A stretch of DNA of 46,642 nucleotides from a bacterium (GTDB taxonomy: Bacteria; Hydrothermota; Tepidihabitantia; Tepidihabitantales; Tepidihabitantaceae). Shown one piece after another: positions 1 through 36,075 of this stretch; position 1 is the stretch's first letter; every line of letters begins with the position of its first letter. Position numbers and translations under genes: made by a program. The notes beneath the pieces are model-generated. The model was not told the DNA's origin and did no database searches. It was given only the letters and a program-made list of their open reading frames with translations. The stretch is taken from the NCBI GenBank assembly GCA_035505375.1, contig DATJQV010000080.1, forward strand, positions 1-46,642, in the 5' to 3' direction.

Positions 1-1497
1 GGGCCGAGGCCGGTGAACCCTGTTCAAAGTACCTCTCGTCAAGAGCAACCTGCGGCCCCTGCGTTATCGCAGCCCACAGCGCGGAATTGGGCGCGCGCTC
101 GAACAGCCACTCATACCTACCCCCGTCCTCGGCGTAGTCGAAGGCCGCCAACTTCTCGGAAGCGTCGGACGAGAAGCCTGTGAAAGACATCCATGCCTTA
201 GCAAGGCGCTCGTTATCGATGATTCGATACGCGTCCGGGCCATACTGGTAATGGTCGGCCCTGAAGTTTTTGGGCTTGTGTTCCTTCATGTTGTCGAACT
301 CCATGTCCTTACGCTGGTAGTACCAGCGGGGTGACATGCCATTGAACTGCCGCTGGAGGACGCGTTGAGTGCGGCTGTTGGATCTGAGATTGCGCGCGGA
401 CATTCGGTTCTGATTGTTGCTAGCGGTGACGACGTCCTCCAGGATGCCCTCATCTGGAGTGATTATGAACCGAACAGGCACAAGACAGTGGGTATCGAAA
501 CGCTGTCTGCTAGCGTCATCATCCATGTCCTTGTAGGCGTGGTGAAGAGATATGACAGTCTGACAGCCGTTGATGATCTGCGGCTTGTGTAGCGTTGCGT
601 GGCAGGGTTGCGCGGCTCCCTTGGGCAAGCTGAGGGAATTGCATGAGAAGGTTACGCCGTTATTGAGAAGGTGGAAGCGCTCCTGTCCCTTTCTGTCCTG
701 CAGGGTTTCGATTATCTGCCTATTGATGGATGTCTTCTTGCCTAGATAGAACCTCACGTTCAGGTCGAAGAGCGCCAGCTTATGTTGGTCGAATATCCTG
801 AATATCTCTCGGGCTGGCACGAGGGCATAGCCCCATTTCTTCACCTGTCGATACGAATCTGGCTCGACATCGAGCCTGATCTTGTCCGGACGTTCCGGTG
901 ACAGCAACGACATGCCGAGTTCCGAGGCAATTCGCTGGTAGTCGACCACACGAACTTCGTACTTAGGTGCGGGCCACTTAGAGCGCAGTTCCTCGAGCTT
1001 TTCCTTCGCAGCAGGCGTGAGTGTGCCGAACACGGCCAATACGGAGTCGAGCCTGAACGTCCCACCATCGCGCTCAGCGGCCTCTCTGCCTGCCCGAAAG
1101 CGGTTCCGCGCCTCTTGAGCGCAGGGGTTCCCTCTAGCATTGCCTTCGTCATCGCTAAGGAACGTCAAGACATCTTCTATCTCGTTGATGACGTCGGGTC
1201 CGTACGTGACCGGACTGACTACACTTGTGTCGTCGATATCCGGTAGTTTGCACTGATAGGCCACGACGCGCTCTTCCGTGATGTCATAGAAGTCGATCTT
1301 CTGGTCCTTTGAGCGGTCACACACGCGGAGTCTGTCCGGCGCGATATTCTCAAGCTGCTGACCTATGTAGTACACGAATAGTTTCTGGAAATCGTCTCCT
1401 AAGTCAGGTCCTTCTTCGGATAGCGTTTCAAGGGTGCGTCTGAGCAAACCGACGATGTCCACATACTTGTAGTTGTCCCCTATGGCTTTCTTCATGG
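1..1497 (-). CDS. AIPR-family protein (abortive infection / phage resistance type), 3' end cut by window edge
   Basis: I translated the minus strand from ATG at 1497 and it stays open for 499 codons to the window edge, so the C-terminus is missing. The family call rests on the AIPR core at about residues 235-320: a stretch reading LFDLNVRFYLG, then INRQIIETLQ, then FHLLNNGVTFSC, and IINGCQTVISL. The N-terminal part has a restriction-fold-like half motif, D68 followed by QCK (Q81-K83), which resembles the ID...QxK signature seen at the front of many AIPR proteins. The start is preceded by AAGGAG about 10 nt upstream and lies 28 nt after the stop of the CBS-HEPN gene, so the two are one operon. 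AIPR proteins were first noticed in phage-resistance loci and are thought to act on nucleic acid; no activity can be proved from this sequence. Family call is firm; defence role is inference. Confidence 0.85.
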
Positions 1498-1525
1498 TGT
1501 GCGTGCTCCTTGTGTATCAACGGCG

Positions 1526-2605
1526 CTACGTCGCGCCCAACTTCTGGAGGGTAGAGAGGAATCCAGAGAACTCCCTCAACACTGTCAGATCGTCCCGGGT
1601 GATTCCGTCCGGGTCGAAGTGCATCACGTCGTTCCGAATATCCCTGACCCTGTCCAGTCTTTCTATGAATGCCGCGCGGTCGACTCTAAGCTGAAGCCTC
1701 TCCCATTTCCTCGGGTCGGCTAGGACGCGAACGTACTCGCCTATCGTGAGGTCTGCGACCTTCTTTACCTCTCGGCCGGAGTCAGTGTTGAGTTTGCTCG
1801 ATTTCAGCTCCTCAATTGAGAAGTGCTTCAGAAGTATTCGGCGGATGTGGTTCTCAATCTGTGATAGCAGGAGGAATGGCTCGGCCAATTGGTGGAACTG
1901 TCTGCTGATGTCGCTGGCAGTGATGATTCCCGTGATCCTTCTGTCACGACCCTTGACAAGCACGTATTCATGCTGCGCAATCGTCTGCATGGCAGTCAGT
2001 AGCGAGTCGTCCTCACTGACCTCATGGTGAGTTTCCATCGCCTCTCGGACCAACAAGGTCGGCAGTCCAAGCGCCAGCCGCGATCCGATGGAGGCCCAGC
2101 TTATTACACCCTTGACGTCTCGTTCGCTGGTCATGACAGGCAGCTGTGAGTAGTCGTTGGACATCATGATGGTCACGGCTTCTGCTATCGGTGCGTCTGG
2201 CTTGACCGAAATCGGTGCGTGCTGAGCTGCCTCAAGCCTGCTTATTCGGTAGGTCGGGTCGGCATACTCGTTAGGCGTCCCGGCGGAGTTTGTGGCGTCC
2301 GGGCGCGTCTCCTCCTGCGCCAAGTGCGAGTCAGAGATGCCATCCTTCCGAGATGTCACCTTGGCGGGTTCTGCAGGTAGGAGCTGCACGGTAGAGTCGA
2401 GATATGCTGCTTCGAAGTCAGGGTCGGTACGCAGGCCTGCTTGGGTGAGACCGGTACGAACCGCGAACACGACCCAGTAACCTCGACGTTGCTGGCCGTA
2501 CCATTCCAGCAATTCCCTTACGGTTACGCGTACGGCCGCACCGTGATTGACATCAGTGGCCACAGCTTTGAGTCGTTCATGTCCGTATTGAGTACTCATT
2601 GGCAT
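1526..2605 (-). CDS. CBS-domain pair fused to a HEPN-like domain
   Basis: 359 residues in three parts. Residues 1-80 form a small domain (VRELLEWYGQQRRGYW followed by a TDPDFEAAYLD stretch) that I do not recognise by name. Residues about 126-180 and 187-236 are two CBS motifs (QLPVM...GVISW and YVLVKGRDRRITGIITASDI), which in this superfamily bind adenine nucleotides or similar ligands. Residues about 240-359 are helical and carry RDIRNDVMHF, in which R324-N-D-V-M-H329 fits the Rx4-6H motif of HEPN ribonucleases. The protein is therefore built like a nucleotide-sensing switch joined to an RNase-type domain. It is the first gene of an operon with the AIPR gene. The start at 2605 lacks a clear Shine-Dalgarno; a second ATG lies two codons downstream. 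Function in defence or stress is inferred from neighbours and domains only. Confidence 0.8.
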   Translation of the reverse strand: MPMSTQYGHERLKAVATDVNHGAAVRVTVRELLEWYGQQRRGYWVVFAVRTGLTQAGLRTDPDFEAAYLDSTVQLLPAEPAKVTSRKDGISDSHLAQEETRPDATNSAGTPNEYADPTYRISRLEAAQHAPISVKPDAPIAEAVTIMMSNDYSQLPVMTSERDVKGVISWASIGSRLALGLPTLLVREAMETHHEVSEDDSLLTAMQTIAQHEYVLVKGRDRRITGIITASDISRQFHQLAEPFLLLSQIENHIRRILLKHFSIEELKSSKLNTDSGREVKKVADLTIGEYVRVLADPRKWERLQLRVDRAAFIERLDRVRDIRNDVMHFDPDGITRDDLTVLREFSGFLSTLQKLGAT

Positions 2606-2691: not shown

Positions 2692-2719
2692 ATTGTAGAC
2701 GGGCACAGCCCGCTGTCAA
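2692..2719 (-). promoter_or_regulatory. Promoter of the CBS-HEPN/AIPR operon
   Basis: Minus strand TTGACA (2719-2714), 16-bp spacer, TACAAT (2697-2692). The predicted start of transcription near 2685 gives a leader of about 80 nt before the CBS-HEPN gene. The 12-bp-period array begins about 40 bp upstream of the -35. Confidence 0.65.
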
Positions 2720-2759: not shown

Positions 2760-3082
2760 GGACACTGACCGGAAAATGAAGCTCGGGATAAGGCTCGGGA
2801 TTAGGCCCGGGATTAGATTCCGGAGTAAGCTCGGGAGTAGACCTGACGATTGCTCCGGCAAAAGACCCGACCATAGGCTCTACTTGTGCATGGGCCTAAG
2901 GCTCGACCATAGGCGGTACGATAGCTGGTGCAGTAAACTCGGCAATAGGCGGAAGGATAGCCGGTACAGAAGGCAGGGCAGTAGGCGGTGGATTAGGTGG
3001 GCGAGAAGGCTCAGGCTTAGGCGCGACAATTGGCGGGGCAATAGGCGGGGATTTAGGTGTGAGGATAGGCCCGGGTAACCGT
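2760..3082. repeat. Array A: degenerate 12-bp-period tandem array
   Basis: Successive 12-mers can be cut with little slippage, for example ggctcgggatta, ggcggtacgata, ggcggaaggata, ggcagggcagta, ggcggtggatta, ggcggggcaata, ggcggggattta. Units diverge but keep a GG(C/T) start and a TA end. Because 12 is a multiple of 3, several frames stay open across it, which explains the small ORFs here; I do not regard them as genes. The array sits in the 681-bp gene-free stretch 2606-3286, upstream of the AIPR-operon promoter. It is followed by an acgaccccc-ggcagggaat tail that is also found after array C. Between 3105 and 3240 I see nothing else. Confidence 0.7.
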
Positions 3083-3239: not shown

Positions 3240-3268
3240 ACTAGAAACCCCCGGCAGGAGGCCGGGGG
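3240..3268 (-). terminator. Rho-independent terminator of the envelope operon
   Basis: GC-rich hairpin with arms cccccggc (3248-3255) and gccggggg (3261-3268) and a 5-nt loop. On the minus strand it is followed by TTTCTAGTTTCT and lies 19 nt after the stop of the parvulin gene. Confidence 0.75.
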
Positions 3269-3286
3269 CTGTGGAGTCGGTGCAGA

Positions 3287-5920
3287 CTACTTCTGTTTGT
3301 CTGACCCGGAGGGCTTGGGCTGCGGCGCGGGCTGCGGCTTGGGAGCCGGCTGGACCTGCATCGGATTGGCCTGAGGTTGGGCCGGCTGGGCTTCTTCCGG
3401 GGCGGCCTCGGTTTCGAAGTCGGATTCCTTCATCAGGACCTGTATCTTCGCCTTGGCCCGCAGGTTTGCTACCAACTGGTCGTACAGTTGCTTCTCCTGC
3501 GCGCGGCGGAGTTTGTTGTCGATCTTCGGGCGGACCTCGGTGAAGGGATGCGTGAACGCGTCCTTCTTTTCTACCATGGTCACGAAAGTGTAGGTGGAGT
3601 CGTTCAGCTTGATGACCGGCGAGATTCCGCCCTTGGACAGGATGAACGCGGCGTCGACGACTTTCTTGTCGTGAGCCTTATCGTCCCTGGCGAGCCAGTA
3701 GAGGTCGCCGCCGGACCAGCGGCTGGCCGAGGAGGAGAACCGTTTCGCTATGTCCTCGAACGGCGTCTTCTGCGCGGTATCCTTCTTCGTTACCTTCACG
3801 AGCAGCGTGCCGGCCGTTGTCTTGAGCGGCGCGGCGGTCTGCCCGGCGTTCAGTTTGAACAGGCCGGTTACGAAGTCGGCAGGCAGGGCTTCGTCGAGCT
3901 GGACGTAGGTGCCGAGCTTGGCCGAGTCGGTCGGAGCGACCTTCGCGGTTTCCGAACGAGGCGGCCGGCCGAGCAGCGAGTCAAGTTGGCTGATCCGCTT
4001 GACTTCCAGCAGCGCCGGTTTGTACAGCTTGTCCTGTTTGGAGAGGTCGTCGAATCCGAGGGCATACGCGCCTGACTTGAGGTAGGGGCCGGTGAGTTTC
4101 GTCTTCTGCGACAGGTCGGGCACGTTCTTGTTGCCGACGCTCGTCATCGGCTTGCCCGGCAGCAGGGCCGGGGCGCCGGCGAGAGCGTAGAGGCCCAGCA
4201 GGGAATCGCTGTTGGCGGTTGCGGCCGAGAACGATGTCGCAAGTTCCTGCATCGGTGCCGGGAAGAGCAGGGCGCGGCCCTGAACTAAGACCGGCAGCTT
4301 GCCGTTCACGGCCCAGTCGTGCACTTGCTGTGCCCGGGCCATGCTCGCGGCGGTGATTTCGCGGGCGTGGACCTTGGTCGGTTCTTTGTAGTCGGCGAGG
4401 TGCGCCTTGTAGTCGGCCATCAGCGTGGCCGAGTCGAGCACGACCTTGTCGACGGTCATCTTCTTGCGGTACGCGTCAATCAGCATGTTCGACCGGGCGG
4501 TGAGGATCTGGTCGACGACCTTGTTGACGAGCCACAGCTTCTGATACTCGGTTTGCTTGATCAGCAGCTTTTCGAGGATGAGGTTGTCAAGGATGCGGCG
4601 TTTGCCCTCGGGCGAGTTGAACTGGTCCCGGTAGAACGGCGGGATCATGTTGAGCCTGGCCGCGAGCGCGGATGAGTCGATGACGACGCCATTGACCACG
4701 GCGAGCGTGTCTTTGCCCTTGGCGATGGCCGCAGTGTCCTGGGTGATGGCCGCGTGGGCCTTGAGGTCGGCAACCGCTTTGTCGTAGGCCTTGGTCGAGT
4801 TCTGCTGCTGCATATCCGAGGTGAGCTGGCTGCGGACGTCGGCATAGGTGCGGACAGTCTTCGGCTTCTTCTCGGTCACCTTGATGATGACGAAGCCGTC
4901 TTTCACCTGAATCGGCTGGCTGATATCGCCGAGCTTCAGCGTGAAGGCCGCATCTTCGACCGGCTTCTGCAGGGAGCCGCGGGCAATCAGGCCGAGGTCC
5001 CCGCCCTTTGCCTTGTCCGGAGCGGTTGAGGCCTGTTTGGCGATGGTGTCCCATTTCTTCGCGGTCGTGTCGGACACAAGCCTGGCCCGCAGTTTGTCGG
5101 CCGAGTCCTTAGTCGGCACCTGAATCTGGTAGACGTGCACCTTTTCCGGTGTGGTGTACTTGGTGGCCAGGTCTTTGTTGTAGGCCGCCTTCATGTCTTT
5201 CTCGGTCGGCGCGCTGTTGTCTTCGACCGTGCGCTGGTACCATTCCTGGAACATCGCCCGGTTGCGCTGGTCCTCGAAGCCGGACGTGAAGGACGTATCG
5301 CGGGCGACGCCGCCAGCGAGCGCGGCTTTGTAGAGCAGCCGGTTGTCGATCATCGTGTCGAGCAACTGCTGCTTCTTGTCGAACTTCTCGTACGCGGTCG
5401 GGTTGCGGCTGATGTGGTCGTCGATCTCGATCCGGGTGATGGGGAAGGAGTCCACGAATGCGACGCGGTCCTGGTAGTTCTTACGGAAGCAACGCTCGAT
5501 GGCGTCGAGCGCGTCGCTGCCGTAGGTCGACTTGGAGTAGCGCGTGGCGACCTGCTCGTAGTACTTCGCGGCATCGAGGTAGTTTTCCCGCAGCTCCTCG
5601 CAGAGCGCGAGGCGGTACAGGACGTCGGGCAATTGCTTGTCCTTGGGGTAAGCCGCGCTTAGACCGGAGTAGACCGACTCGGCCCCGGCGTAGTCCGCCT
5701 TCTTGTCGAGCAGGAAATCGCCGAGTTCGAGCCGGACGGCAAAGCGGTCGGCCGGCGTCTTGGCTTCGGCGTCGAGCCGTTGCAGTACCGCGTGCGCCTG
5801 GTCTACCTTCTTCGCCACATATAACCCGTAGACTGTGTCGAGCGCGGCGCTCACCGGCGTAGTGCTCGCCCCGGCGGCCGCGACCAGGCAGAGCAGTGCG
5901 AGAGTCAGAGCTTTCTTCAC
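3287..5920 (-). CDS. Periplasmic double-parvulin peptidyl-prolyl isomerase/chaperone with N-terminal TPR
   Basis: 877 residues. A signal peptide (MKKALTLALLCLVAAAGAS) is followed by a TPR-like part up to about residue 160 (GDFLLDKKADYAGAESVY, YYEQVATRYS). A SurA/PrsA-like helical part comes next, then a parvulin domain at about 260-365 with the family signature GGDLGLIARGS...FTLKLGDISQP. A second helical linker precedes a second parvulin-like domain at about 680-800 (GGDLYWLARDD...KGGISPVI). The tail is rich in P, Q and A. Such proteins help outer-membrane proteins fold or mature in the periplasm. GTG start with a strong AAGGAGG six nt upstream. It is the last gene of an operon with the kinase-like, PorV-like and NHL genes, which fits a role in envelope assembly. 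It is larger than SurA (about 430 aa) because of the TPR part and the long inserts. Confidence 0.85.
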   Translation of the reverse strand: MKKALTLALLCLVAAAGASTTPVSAALDTVYGLYVAKKVDQAHAVLQRLDAEAKTPADRFAVRLELGDFLLDKKADYAGAESVYSGLSAAYPKDKQLPDVLYRLALCEELRENYLDAAKYYEQVATRYSKSTYGSDALDAIERCFRKNYQDRVAFVDSFPITRIEIDDHISRNPTAYEKFDKKQQLLDTMIDNRLLYKAALAGGVARDTSFTSGFEDQRNRAMFQEWYQRTVEDNSAPTEKDMKAAYNKDLATKYTTPEKVHVYQIQVPTKDSADKLRARLVSDTTAKKWDTIAKQASTAPDKAKGGDLGLIARGSLQKPVEDAAFTLKLGDISQPIQVKDGFVIIKVTEKKPKTVRTYADVRSQLTSDMQQQNSTKAYDKAVADLKAHAAITQDTAAIAKGKDTLAVVNGVVIDSSALAARLNMIPPFYRDQFNSPEGKRRILDNLILEKLLIKQTEYQKLWLVNKVVDQILTARSNMLIDAYRKKMTVDKVVLDSATLMADYKAHLADYKEPTKVHAREITAASMARAQQVHDWAVNGKLPVLVQGRALLFPAPMQELATSFSAATANSDSLLGLYALAGAPALLPGKPMTSVGNKNVPDLSQKTKLTGPYLKSGAYALGFDDLSKQDKLYKPALLEVKRISQLDSLLGRPPRSETAKVAPTDSAKLGTYVQLDEALPADFVTGLFKLNAGQTAAPLKTTAGTLLVKVTKKDTAQKTPFEDIAKRFSSSASRWSGGDLYWLARDDKAHDKKVVDAAFILSKGGISPVIKLNDSTYTFVTMVEKKDAFTHPFTEVRPKIDNKLRRAQEKQLYDQLVANLRAKAKIQVLMKESDFETEAAPEEAQPAQPQANPMQVQPAPKPQPAPQPKPSGSDKQK

Positions 5921-8942: not shown

Positions 8943-11561
8943 TTAGGGTGAGGACTGCGAGCCCGGCCTGGAGAAGAGGCGCTGCCAGCGCGGGTCGCCG
9001 TGCAGTGCGTTGAAGTCGGAATCAGTCCGGGCATCGCGGAGCAACGCCGGGGCGCGGTCCTGAAGCAGCTCCAGCAACTCGAAGGCCTTGTCCTTGTCGG
9101 CAGCCTTGGCGCACGCACAAGCCCAGTTGAAGAGCGCCTCGTAGTAGTCGGGTTTGACTTCGATGGCGCGCTGGAACCTGGCGTACGCTTCCCCGGCTGT
9201 CGTTCGGGCTTCGCCTCCGGTCTGGAGCAGAGCCAGATCGCCGAGTGCGACGCCCCAGTTGCTGAACGCCACGTGGAAGTCGGGCTTGAGTTCCGTGGCA
9301 CGCTGGTACTTGTCGCAGGCCTCCCTCAATGTGGCACGGGCTTCGTCGCCGGTCTGGAACGAGGCCAGGTGGGCGAGTGCGCTGCCCCAGTTGTTGAACG
9401 CCGCGTCGAAGTCAGGCCTTTGTTCGGTGGCGCTCTGGAACCTGGCGCAGGCCTCTTCGAACGTGGCCCTGACTTCATCGCCGGTCTGGAACAGGGCCAG
9501 GTCATAGAGCGCGTTGCCCCAGTTGTTGAACGCCTCGTGGAGGTCGGGCTTGAGTTCGGTAGCTCGCTGGAACCTGGCACAGGCGTCCTTGAAGGTGGCC
9601 CTGGCCTCATCGCCGGTCTGCTGCTTGGCCAACTCGTAAAGGGCGCGGCCCCAGTTATTGAATGCCTCGTATTTGTCAGGCTTGATTTCGGTGGCGCGCT
9701 GGAACCGGGCGCAGGCCTCCTTGAATGTGGCCACGGCCTCGCCGCCGGACAGGAGCCGGGCCAGGTCATAGAGCGCGTTTCCCCAGTAGTTGAACGCCAC
9801 GTGGAAGTCGGGCTTGATCTCGGTAGCACGCTGGTACTTGTCGCAGGCCTCCCGCAATGTGGCCTTGACTTCGTCGCCGGTCTGGAGACGGGCAAGGTCA
9901 AAGAGCGCGTTGCCCCAGTTGTCGAAGGCCGCGTGCAAGTCGGGTCTGAGTTCGGTGGCGCGTTGCAACCGGGCACAGGCCTCCTTGAATGTGGCTCTGG
10001 CCTCGTCGCCGGTCTGGAGCAGGCCCAGGTCATAAAGTGCATTGCCCCAGTAGTTGAATGCCGTGTAGATGTCTGGTTTGAGTTCGGTCGCGCGCCGGAA
10101 CTTGTCGCAGGCCTCCGTGAATGTAGCCCTGGCTTCATCGTCGGTCTGGAGCAGTGCCGATTCGTAGAGTGCGCGGCCCCAGGTGTTGAACGCCTCAGGC
10201 TGGTCAGGCTTGATATCCGTGGCGCGCCGGAACTTGTCGCAGGTCTCGCCGAGTGCGGTCCTGGCGTCGTCGCCGGTCTGGAGCCGGGCCAGCTCGTAAA
10301 GTGCATTGCCCCAATTGTACAGCGCGCGGTGCAGGTCGGGTTTGACCTCGGCAGCGCGTTCGAACCGGGCACAGGCGTCCCGGAACAAGGCCACTGCCTC
10401 GTCGCCGGTCTGGGACCGGGCCATGTCAGCGAGTGCGACACCCCAGTCATCGAACGCATGACCAAGCGGGTCGAATGCGTCGGTTGCATCGAGCTTCCTG
10501 GCTTGCTCCAGCAGGTAGTCCAGCGCGCCCGTGTCCGCCTCGGCCCACGCTTCGCGGGCCTGTTTCACGACCGTGTCGCGCTCGATGGGCAGCTTTCCAT
10601 CTTCGCGCGGGCAGGCCGCCTCATTCCTTTCGAAGCAGTCTATCGCCGTGGCTGCCCAGTGTTTCCCCACTTCCGCAAGGTCGGTCTCCTCGACCGCGGC
10701 CACCTGTTCCAGGGTTTCACGCAGGTAGGAGAAGGGTTCCACCGTCATAGCCGAGCATTCGATGCCGAGCGCCCGTGCGAGGCGCATGAAGAACAGGTCG
10801 GCATCCTGGTTGCGTACGCAGTATGCGAGATTCGCGTCTACGCCGAACAACCCGTCCCGGACGTGTGACTTCGGTTCGGCGTCTCCGTGGAGGGTCCAGT
10901 AGAGACCGTGCGGATGCTGCCCGTGCCTGCAGAGAATGTCGAACACCGGGTCATTCTCGCCGCCGTAACCCACGACGATAAGGGTCCTGTCGTCGAGCAC
11001 GGAGTAGAGAACGCTCGCCAGCCGTGCCCTTGCCGCCCGGTCTTCTTTGATCATCTGCGTCGTGCGGAACGCCCCGCCTTGGCCGTGAAGGTGAAGTACC
11101 GCGGGGGAGATGGCCCGTGCAGGGTCAATGGTGCCGACGTTCGCAACGTCATACACGTAGTGGTTCACGTTGGCGAAGGCCAGGCCGCGCACTGCGAGAG
11201 AGTCGAAGTTGGTGGTCAGAATCCAATCGACCAGGCCGTGCTTGACCAGGCAGGCGGCGTAGAGGTGCGCCATGTTTATTCTGGCCTTGCTCAAGTACCG
11301 GTCGAGTACTGCGGCACGCTGGTTCGCGTCGAGCCCTGCCACGAAGCTCGCGTAGTCCGGCAGGCGCTCGCGGTTGAACCCCGGGAACCTGTCCGCGTAC
11401 TGGTCGAAGTTATCCATCACGATTTCCGCGGCAAGTGGGATGCCGGCTGAGCGGGAAGCACCCGCGCCCAGTAGCAGCGCAGCCTTGCGGTCCTGCTTCT
11501 CGTTGTCCCTCAGCTTCCGTGCGATGTCATCAATCGCAGCCAGGCGGCACGACTCCATCAT
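8943..11561 (-). CDS. SIR2-domain protein with long TPR-type repeat array
   Basis: About 872 residues. The N-terminal SIR2 domain (1-270) shows GAGAS at 32-36 (NAD loop), TTNFD with N118, LHLHG with H159 at the catalytic position, and VVGYGGENDPVF. From about residue 365 to 840 there are ten copies of a 44-residue unit (consensus FNNWGNALYDLA then ACARFQRATELKPD), each 132 bp, so alike in DNA that recent expansion is likely. SIR2 domains of this bacterial type are NAD-consuming enzymes in several anti-phage systems (Thoeris ThsA, DSR and others), usually fused to a sensor; a repeat array would be the sensor here. Three ATG codons stand in a row at 11564, 11561 and 11558; the second is 6 nt from the -10 box and is preferred. 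It stands alone as a transcription unit. Defence role is inference. Confidence 0.85.
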   Translation of the reverse strand: MMESCRLAAIDDIARKLRDNEKQDRKAALLLGAGASRSAGIPLAAEIVMDNFDQYADRFPGFNRERLPDYASFVAGLDANQRAAVLDRYLSKARINMAHLYAACLVKHGLVDWILTTNFDSLAVRGLAFANVNHYVYDVANVGTIDPARAISPAVLHLHGQGGAFRTTQMIKEDRAARARLASVLYSVLDDRTLIVVGYGGENDPVFDILCRHGQHPHGLYWTLHGDAEPKSHVRDGLFGVDANLAYCVRNQDADLFFMRLARALGIECSAMTVEPFSYLRETLEQVAAVEETDLAEVGKHWAATAIDCFERNEAACPREDGKLPIERDTVVKQAREAWAEADTGALDYLLEQARKLDATDAFDPLGHAFDDWGVALADMARSQTGDEAVALFRDACARFERAAEVKPDLHRALYNWGNALYELARLQTGDDARTALGETCDKFRRATDIKPDQPEAFNTWGRALYESALLQTDDEARATFTEACDKFRRATELKPDIYTAFNYWGNALYDLGLLQTGDEARATFKEACARLQRATELRPDLHAAFDNWGNALFDLARLQTGDEVKATLREACDKYQRATEIKPDFHVAFNYWGNALYDLARLLSGGEAVATFKEACARFQRATEIKPDKYEAFNNWGRALYELAKQQTGDEARATFKDACARFQRATELKPDLHEAFNNWGNALYDLALFQTGDEVRATFEEACARFQSATEQRPDFDAAFNNWGSALAHLASFQTGDEARATLREACDKYQRATELKPDFHVAFSNWGVALGDLALLQTGGEARTTAGEAYARFQRAIEVKPDYYEALFNWACACAKAADKDKAFELLELLQDRAPALLRDARTDSDFNALHGDPRWQRLFSRPGSQSSP

Positions 11562-11567
11562 CATTGG

Positions 11568-12767: not shown

Positions 12768-13382
12768 CTAGAACTCGTAGGTAATCGTGTTGTTCGTCTC
12801 GGAAATCATGCCTTTGGTCTGCATCGTGCCGATGATGTGGTCGATTTCCTGCCGGCTGATCTTCTTCTGGAACATGGCGGAGATGGCCTGCGACAGGGTC
12901 TTGCGTTTGCGCGGGCGGGCCCGTTTCTCTACCTTGCCGAGGACATGGATGACACGCTGCAGCCTCGCGTCTTCCGCGGCCGGGGCAGGCGCTGCCGCCG
13001 CGGCCTTGTGGTGAAGCTCGTTGAGGTTCCCGATACGCCGGGACTTCATGCCGTTGGCGTTCAGATACTTGATGAGCGGGTCGAATCCTTTGTCGCGTGA
13101 GAGCACCAGGCATTCGGGCTTGGGCGTCTGGTCGTATGCCCGACCGAGCTGGAAGGCGATGAAGAAATCGAGCGCGTTGCTGCCGTTCCCGGTTATCTTC
13201 TGCCATTCGACCCGCCCGCCGAGCTGCTGTGCCCGCGTCACGAGGTCAAAGGGAACGCTCTTCTGGTCCGCGCCGACGAAGATGATTACGCGGTAGCTGT
13301 CGTCGAGGTTTGCCAGCTCCACCTGCTGCACGTTCTCGAAGTCCACGAGCAGCAGTTGCGTCTTTTCATGTGTAGTTTGCAT
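12768..13382 (-). CDS. NYN/PIN-like nuclease with C-terminal winged-helix-like domain
   Basis: 204 residues. The first 125 have the acidic pattern of PIN/NYN ribonucleases: LLLVDFENVQ (D14, N17), NGSNALDFFIAFQLG (D72) and VLSRDKGFDPLI (D97, D101). An Ala-rich linker at about 127-140 leads to a helical basic C-terminal part (KRKTLSQAISAMF, IDHIIGTMQTKGMI) that looks like a small winged helix. Proteins of this kind are predicted to cut RNA; the target is unknown. The -10 box lies 8 nt upstream of the ATG, so the transcript is nearly leaderless. Confidence 0.75.
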   Translation of the reverse strand: MQTTHEKTQLLLVDFENVQQVELANLDDSYRVIIFVGADQKSVPFDLVTRAQQLGGRVEWQKITGNGSNALDFFIAFQLGRAYDQTPKPECLVLSRDKGFDPLIKYLNANGMKSRRIGNLNELHHKAAAAAPAPAAEDARLQRVIHVLGKVEKRARPRKRKTLSQAISAMFQKKISRQEIDHIIGTMQTKGMISETNNTITYEF

Positions 13383-20055: not shown

Positions 20056-20352
20056 GTGCGGCTGAAACCCAGCGCCGGGATGAGCATCCTCCCAAGCGCT
20101 GGGACAAGCATCCTCACAAGCACCGGGACAAGCACCCTCACAAGCACCGGGATAAGCACCCTCACAAGCACCGGGATAAGCACCGTCCCAAGCGCCGGGA
20201 TAAGCACTCCTCCAAGCCCCTGGACAAGCACCCCTCCAAGCCCCTGGACAAGCACCCCTCCAAGCGCCGGGATAAGCACCGTCCCAAGCGCCGGGACAAG
20301 CGCCGTCATAAGCGTCGGGATAAGCACCTCCCTAAGCCCCGGGATAAGGTCC
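20056..20352. repeat. Array C: regular 12/24-bp-period tandem array
   Basis: The clearest of the four arrays. About 24 units of 12 bp: gcaccgggataa and gcgccgggataa alternate with gcaccctcacaa, gcaccgtcccaa, gcacccctccaa or gcccctggacaa, so the true unit is often 24 bp. No slippage is needed over nearly 300 bp. It lies in the 657-bp gene-free stretch 19830-20486. The tail after 20352 (acctcccccca acgacccctgggcgggaa) matches the tail of array A. From 20400 to 20486 I see nothing. The open frames through it have only 4- or 8-residue periods and are not genes in my view. Confidence 0.85.
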
Positions 20353-35764: not shown

Positions 35765-36075
35765 TGACCGCGCGGCTTGCCTTATTGCTCTCCGAATTGC
35801 TGAGCAGATTGTCTGCCCCGCTGCTTGGCGAATTGCTCTCCGGGGAGCTTGCCGGGCAATCCTCCGCGCAGCCAGCGGAAGACCCCACCGGACTGCGCCC
35901 CCCGCGGCCTTCCGAGCAGCTCGCCGATCTCCTCTCCGAATAGCCTGCCCGGCAGCATGCCGGGCTGCTGACCACGCAGCTTCGCGGATTTCTCACGGGA
36001 TAGCATACGGAGCAACCTTCGGAACTGCTTTCCGGGTAGTTCTCCAAAGAGCTTCCACAATAGCCGGGGGGATGG
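35765..36075. repeat. Array D: degenerate 12-bp-period tandem array
   Basis: Units such as ttgctctccgaa, cagctcgccgat, ctcctctccgaa, tagcctgcccgg, cagcatgccggg, cagcttcgcgga, tagcatacggag, caaccttcggaa and ctgctttccggg follow at 12-bp steps, consensus near (C/T)AGC(T/C)TNCCGGA. It lies in the 653-bp gene-free stretch 35676-36328. Before it (35680-35740) is a gggagc/gggaac-type patch. After it (36080-36280) I see only low-complexity patches and then the MarR promoter. No gene is supported. Confidence 0.65.

Follow-up and report, generated by a model that had tools for sequence, protein, structure and literature searches.

The first gene of a tandem pair at one end of a bacterial contig, which encodes a protein with a CBS domain pair and a HEPN domain, is by its sequence a member of the DS-11 family, a system already tested by others as one gene. 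It is very probably a horizontally acquired, single-protein DS-11 system, and the AIPR gene that follows it a separate neighbouring defence gene and no obligate partner. The window, that is, the whole stretch of DNA analysed, is one entire contig of 46,642 bases (contig C80, in an assembly of 3.6 Mb and 90 contigs). For its DS-11 gene we established the family membership, the conserved residues and, at the loci surveyed, the absence of a linkage to AIPR.

Table. Features of the CBS-HEPN/AIPR region, with positions in the window.
Feature	Position	Strand	Remarks
AIPR (AbiU1-type) gene, N-terminal 498 aa	2..1495	-	PF10592 7e-38; cut by contig end
AIPR domain, about profile positions 1-202 of 308	155..769	-	PF10592
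Candidate PD-(D/E)XK nuclease core: D64, D68, Q81-C82-K83	1247..1306	-	AIPR alignment
Gap between CBS-HEPN and AIPR genes	1496..1525	.	30 bp
AAGGAG, probable ribosome-binding site of AIPR gene	1506..1511	-	read directly; ten bases before ATG
CBS-HEPN gene, DS-11 family	1526..2605	-	359 aa; NF053863 match
HEPN domain, residues 240-356	1538..1888	-	helical bundle in model; weak HEPN_Swt1, Csx1 matches
RNDVMH, R-x4-H HEPN nuclease motif, R324 to H329	1619..1636	-	kept in 79/79 relatives
CBS domain pair, residues 122-238	1892..2242	-	Pfam CBS 4.8e-15
Y152 codon	2150..2152	-	aligns with E. coli DS-11 Y157, adenine contact
N-terminal domain, residues 1-83	2357..2605	-	winged-helix-like helix/strand order; AlphaFold2
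Promoter-like TTGACA-N16-TACAAT, 11/12 match	2692..2719	-	upstream of CBS-HEPN gene
Terminator-like hairpin after SurA/PPIC-like gene (3287-5920)	3246..3270	-	

The CBS-HEPN protein matches the NCBIfam model NF053863 (DS11_antiphage), an equivalog named 'CBS domain-containing anti-phage protein', with 389.2 bits against a curated cut-off of 260 bits, and its residues 30-350 cover the profile from end to end (1-305 of 305). It is 42% identical to E. coli DS-11 (150 of 353 aligned positions), and the best-scoring of its 80 relatives shows 52% identity. DS-11, found with DefensePredictor, is presented as a one-protein CBS + HEPN system which protects E. coli against phage, with protection abolished by Y157A in the CBS region or by changes of the HEPN catalytic residues, and with an adenine derivative not yet known proposed as the signal (PMC13092281). 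In the E. coli DS-11 gene that we found, residue 157 is a tyrosine, in agreement with the published numbering. This gene is present in 127 of 5,426 E. coli genomes, in every case on the chromosome, and the three contexts inspected were identical, lacking an AIPR gene and having a tyrosine recombinase upstream. The preliminary description of this DNA had proposed a CBS-gated HEPN nuclease, which was right in outline and agrees with the DS-11 experiments (PMC13092281); as these are already published, the idea is not new. It had also stated that no named system with this pair was known; this holds for the pair, but the named system, DS-11, is the single protein.

The two elements that the preliminary description had recognised in the first gene, the CBS pair and the R-x4-H motif of a HEPN domain, are both present (R324-N-D-V-M-H329 for the latter), and along the 359 residues an N-terminal domain is followed by the CBS pair and then by HEPN. 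In the AlphaFold2 model (mean pLDDT 90, mostly above 90 outside the linker) the N-terminal domain is winged-helix-like, a disordered linker (residues 84-113) connects it to the CBS pair, and the C-terminal region forms a helical bundle. The CBS pair is a probable adenine-nucleotide sensor, to judge from its sequence and model: a Foldseek search with the modelled pair matched adenosyl-binding CBS pairs such as MJ0100 and CBSX2, the position aligned to Y152 is aromatic in 77 of 79 relatives (26 with Y, 51 with F), and G226, T229 and D232 of the second repeat are invariant across the 79 relatives aligned. For the C-terminal region, HEPN_Swt1 in Pfam stays below threshold (E 0.08), and the HEPN assignment is founded on the helical model, on DS-11 membership and on the invariant motif, which extends to RNDVMHFD in all 79 relatives. 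The N-terminal domain of DS-11 proteins gave nothing above cut-off in a Pfam search with 10 relatives, and it is not discussed in the accessible part of the DS-11 paper (PMC13092281). It carries a conserved WFGAxRRG...PDF motif.

That the second gene belongs to the AIPR family, as first described, is confirmed by PF10592 (131.5 bits, against a Pfam gathering score of 25) and by the AbiU model of PADLOC (4.9e-37). The gene is real but incomplete; its frame runs off the contig, so that profile positions 203-308 are out of sight and are missing data, not a lost part. The remainder was not found elsewhere in the genome when the C-terminus of the nearest relative was used as the query, which is a weak negative. 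That relative is a 705-aa protein from a genome of the same genus without DS-11, and the window's own genome has a second, diverged AIPR gene (G000:C81:190584-191324, locus L153). D64 and D68 do not vary among 18 diverged AIPR proteins, at least 90% of which also keep K83. The resulting D...QxK pattern resembles that of the Mrr-like PD-(D/E)XK nucleases, and Mrr_cat matches weakly in two AIPR relatives (E 0.004 and 0.009, both short of the gathering score). A profile search matched no solved structure, and an AlphaFold2 model built from 6 rows had a mean pLDDT of 41 and was discarded; as this fold prediction is unusable, the nuclease N-terminus is something that we only infer. An N-terminal HEPN domain has been described in AIPR proteins (PMC3506569); nothing supporting it was seen for the protein in the window.

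The two genes lie on the same strand, separated by 30 bp and not by the 28 bp first reported, and the AAGGAG previously seen before the AIPR start codon is there. These features, together with a composition anomaly common to both genes, make co-expression and joint arrival possible, and DS-11 and AIPR are perhaps co-transcribed here. The promoter of the preliminary description does exist as an 11/12 match at 2719-2692, but it is a weak element, since seven 11-of-12 matches are found in the window (both strands together). Combined with the hairpin, this promoter-like match would separate the CBS-HEPN/AIPR pair from the SurA-like gene and the core operon.

Both genes look acquired, with a foreign-looking GC3 of 0.67 for DS-11 and 0.69 for AIPR, versus 0.81-0.87 in four neighbouring genes. 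DS-11 was found in 1 of the 147 genomes of the phylum and was absent from the other 146, the remaining matches in the phylum covering the CBS region only, most of them in frames some 490 aa long, the size expected of IMP dehydrogenase, which these frames presumably encode. In five genomes of the same genus the sequence that follows the SurA-like gene differs, which indicates a variable site; it looks like an opposite-strand transglutaminase-like gene, a short intergenic sequence or a gas-vesicle-like cluster.

Elsewhere in the window (2777-3060, about 20080-20350, about 35780-36050 and about 11881) we observed degenerate intergenic arrays with a 12-base period, whose unit differs by place (GGCTCGGGATTA, AAGCACCGGGAT, GAATTGCTCTCC). 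In the clearest of them the identity at period 12 amounts to 0.55-0.60, whereas shuffled sequence gives no more than 0.34. Further genomes of the genus have such arrays too, among other places upstream of the AIPR gene in genome G115; examples lie at loci L151 (2680-2957) and L131 (6640-7010). The window further encodes an 873-aa protein (8943-11564) that combines TPR repeats with a TPR-S (sensor) domain, matches SIR2_2 weakly and may be of defence type, and a stand-alone PIN7 domain protein (12768-13382) that is a possible RNase.

The conservation of the gene pair was assessed on a set of 92 DS-11 loci, formed by adding plasmid, viral-contig and E. coli records to the 80 relatives from GTDB genomes; 86 of the 92 retain at least 1.5 kb downstream. 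A profile built from the AIPR sequence of the window and 19 diverged sequences detected AIPR downstream of DS-11 at none of the 92 loci, which are not 92 independent events, as a few are near-identical copies (four of them from E. coli). At a single locus, L042 from Bradyrhizobium, an AIPR gene is found near DS-11, divergent on the opposite strand and about 0.5 kb upstream; this profile match is not an independent detection, since the L042 protein is among the 19 sequences and had been found earlier by a single-sequence search. AIPR genes occur anywhere in 11 of 50 DS-11 genomes, and, according to a different, protein search, in 16 of the 147 genomes that represent the phylum of the window, so that no strong association between DS-11 and AIPR is visible. 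In scans of viral contigs, the AIPR proteins of the window, of the same-genus relative and of L042 retrieved no relatives, and that of Salmonella phage RE2010 retrieved close copies of itself.

The neighbourhoods of DS-11 are diverse. No recurrent neighbour gene was found in the 80 loci, and no Pfam family exceeds four occurrences among 75 downstream or 70 upstream neighbours, the commonest being MlaA (4) and PPK2 (3), neither of which is a defence family. Many loci adjoin ordinary metabolic genes, and some adjoin restriction-modification, pAgo, AbiE, DndC, Thoeris or DRT genes and, once, AbiU, for which no enrichment is claimed. On the Rhizobium plasmid pR132505 (L129, 7986-13020) two genes on the same strand come after DS-11, one for a protein with a PIN-like domain and one for an ATP-binding protein, with a DGQHR-domain protein further on, on the other strand.

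These data bear directly on the main proposal of the preliminary description, a two-gene defence module in which the CBS-HEPN protein would sense a nucleotide and AIPR would act as its partner effector or regulator. In its favour are the tight tandem layout, the ribosome-binding site, the low GC3 common to both genes and the Bradyrhizobium locus, with its AIPR gene some 0.5 kb off on the opposite strand. A tight tandem pair in one genome is, however, weak evidence for a two-gene system, and the co-occurrence check that the description had itself suggested shows the two families to be rarely conserved together, the finding that it had named as speaking against it: AIPR is downstream at 0 of 92 loci and present in only 11 of 50 DS-11 genomes, and DS-11 protects singly in E. 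coli (PMC13092281). Since conservation of the pair is lacking, we rejected the module and regard it as very improbable. A toxin-antitoxin pair with AIPR as the antitoxin was rejected as well, the pair not being conserved and DS-11 working alone. There is a similarly slim chance that the lineage of the window uses the two proteins, the DS-11 RNase and AIPR as a probable PD-(D/E)XK nuclease, jointly from one transcript as a locally assembled composite. If true, such a composite would mount a layered, nucleotide-gated attack on the RNA and DNA of phage.

One might also suppose that the CBS-HEPN protein serves housekeeping or the stress response as a regulator, setting RNA decay by energy charge, with no defence role in this organism. 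Fusions of HEPN and CBS were at one time suggested to adjust RNA stability to ligands (PMC3710099), which would suit such a function, as would the ordinary metabolic genes next to many DS-11 loci. The protein, however, exceeds by a wide margin the cut-off of a defence family that was founded on experiments, its distribution is patchy and its composition foreign, and several relatives adjoin restriction-modification, pAgo, AbiE, DndC, Thoeris or DRT genes, so that we give this explanation little credence.

If the pair is, as we favour, a single-protein DS-11 with an independent AIPR gene beside it, the window protein would most likely work as DS-11 does in E. coli. Its CBS pair would most likely bind an adenine derivative that becomes more or less abundant in the course of a phage infection, binding would switch on the R-x4-H HEPN ribonuclease formed in the dimer, and the activated enzyme would cut RNA, its presumed target, and so stop phage growth. 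AIPR would be a separate defence gene of AbiU1 type, with a probable PD-(D/E)XK-like nuclease N-terminus, which landed at the same variable site and may share a transcript with DS-11 here. The member in the window extends the range of DS-11 to another phylum, and the residues fixed across this range (R-x4-H, the aromatic adenine contact and T-x-x-D in the second CBS) may help with the ligand question.

Among known systems, the AIPR protein shares with MzaE, the AIPR protein of the MZA anti-phage system, an AIPR core of about 190 residues; identity with MzaE (NF041935) was ruled out, the incomplete protein reaching 47.8 bits where the cut-off requires 1050. It resembles the AIPR/AbiU1 family (PF10592; PADLOC AbiU) in its AIPR domain, which is above cut-off, and in its N-terminal D, D and QxK residues, but is only about 20-30% identical to other members and misses its C-terminus at the contig end. 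The HEPN-CBS fusions of Anantharaman et al. 2013 are comparable in that their CBS was predicted to be a nucleotide sensor controlling a HEPN RNase; they differ in that some also carry HD domains, and the accessible part of that work describes no AIPR partner (PMC3710099). The closest likeness is to DS-11 itself. The E. coli gene has no AIPR gene downstream, whereas that of the window has one after 30 bp, but the two proteins have in common their architecture, a full-length match above the equivalog cut-off, the adenine-contact tyrosine and the R-x4-H motif.
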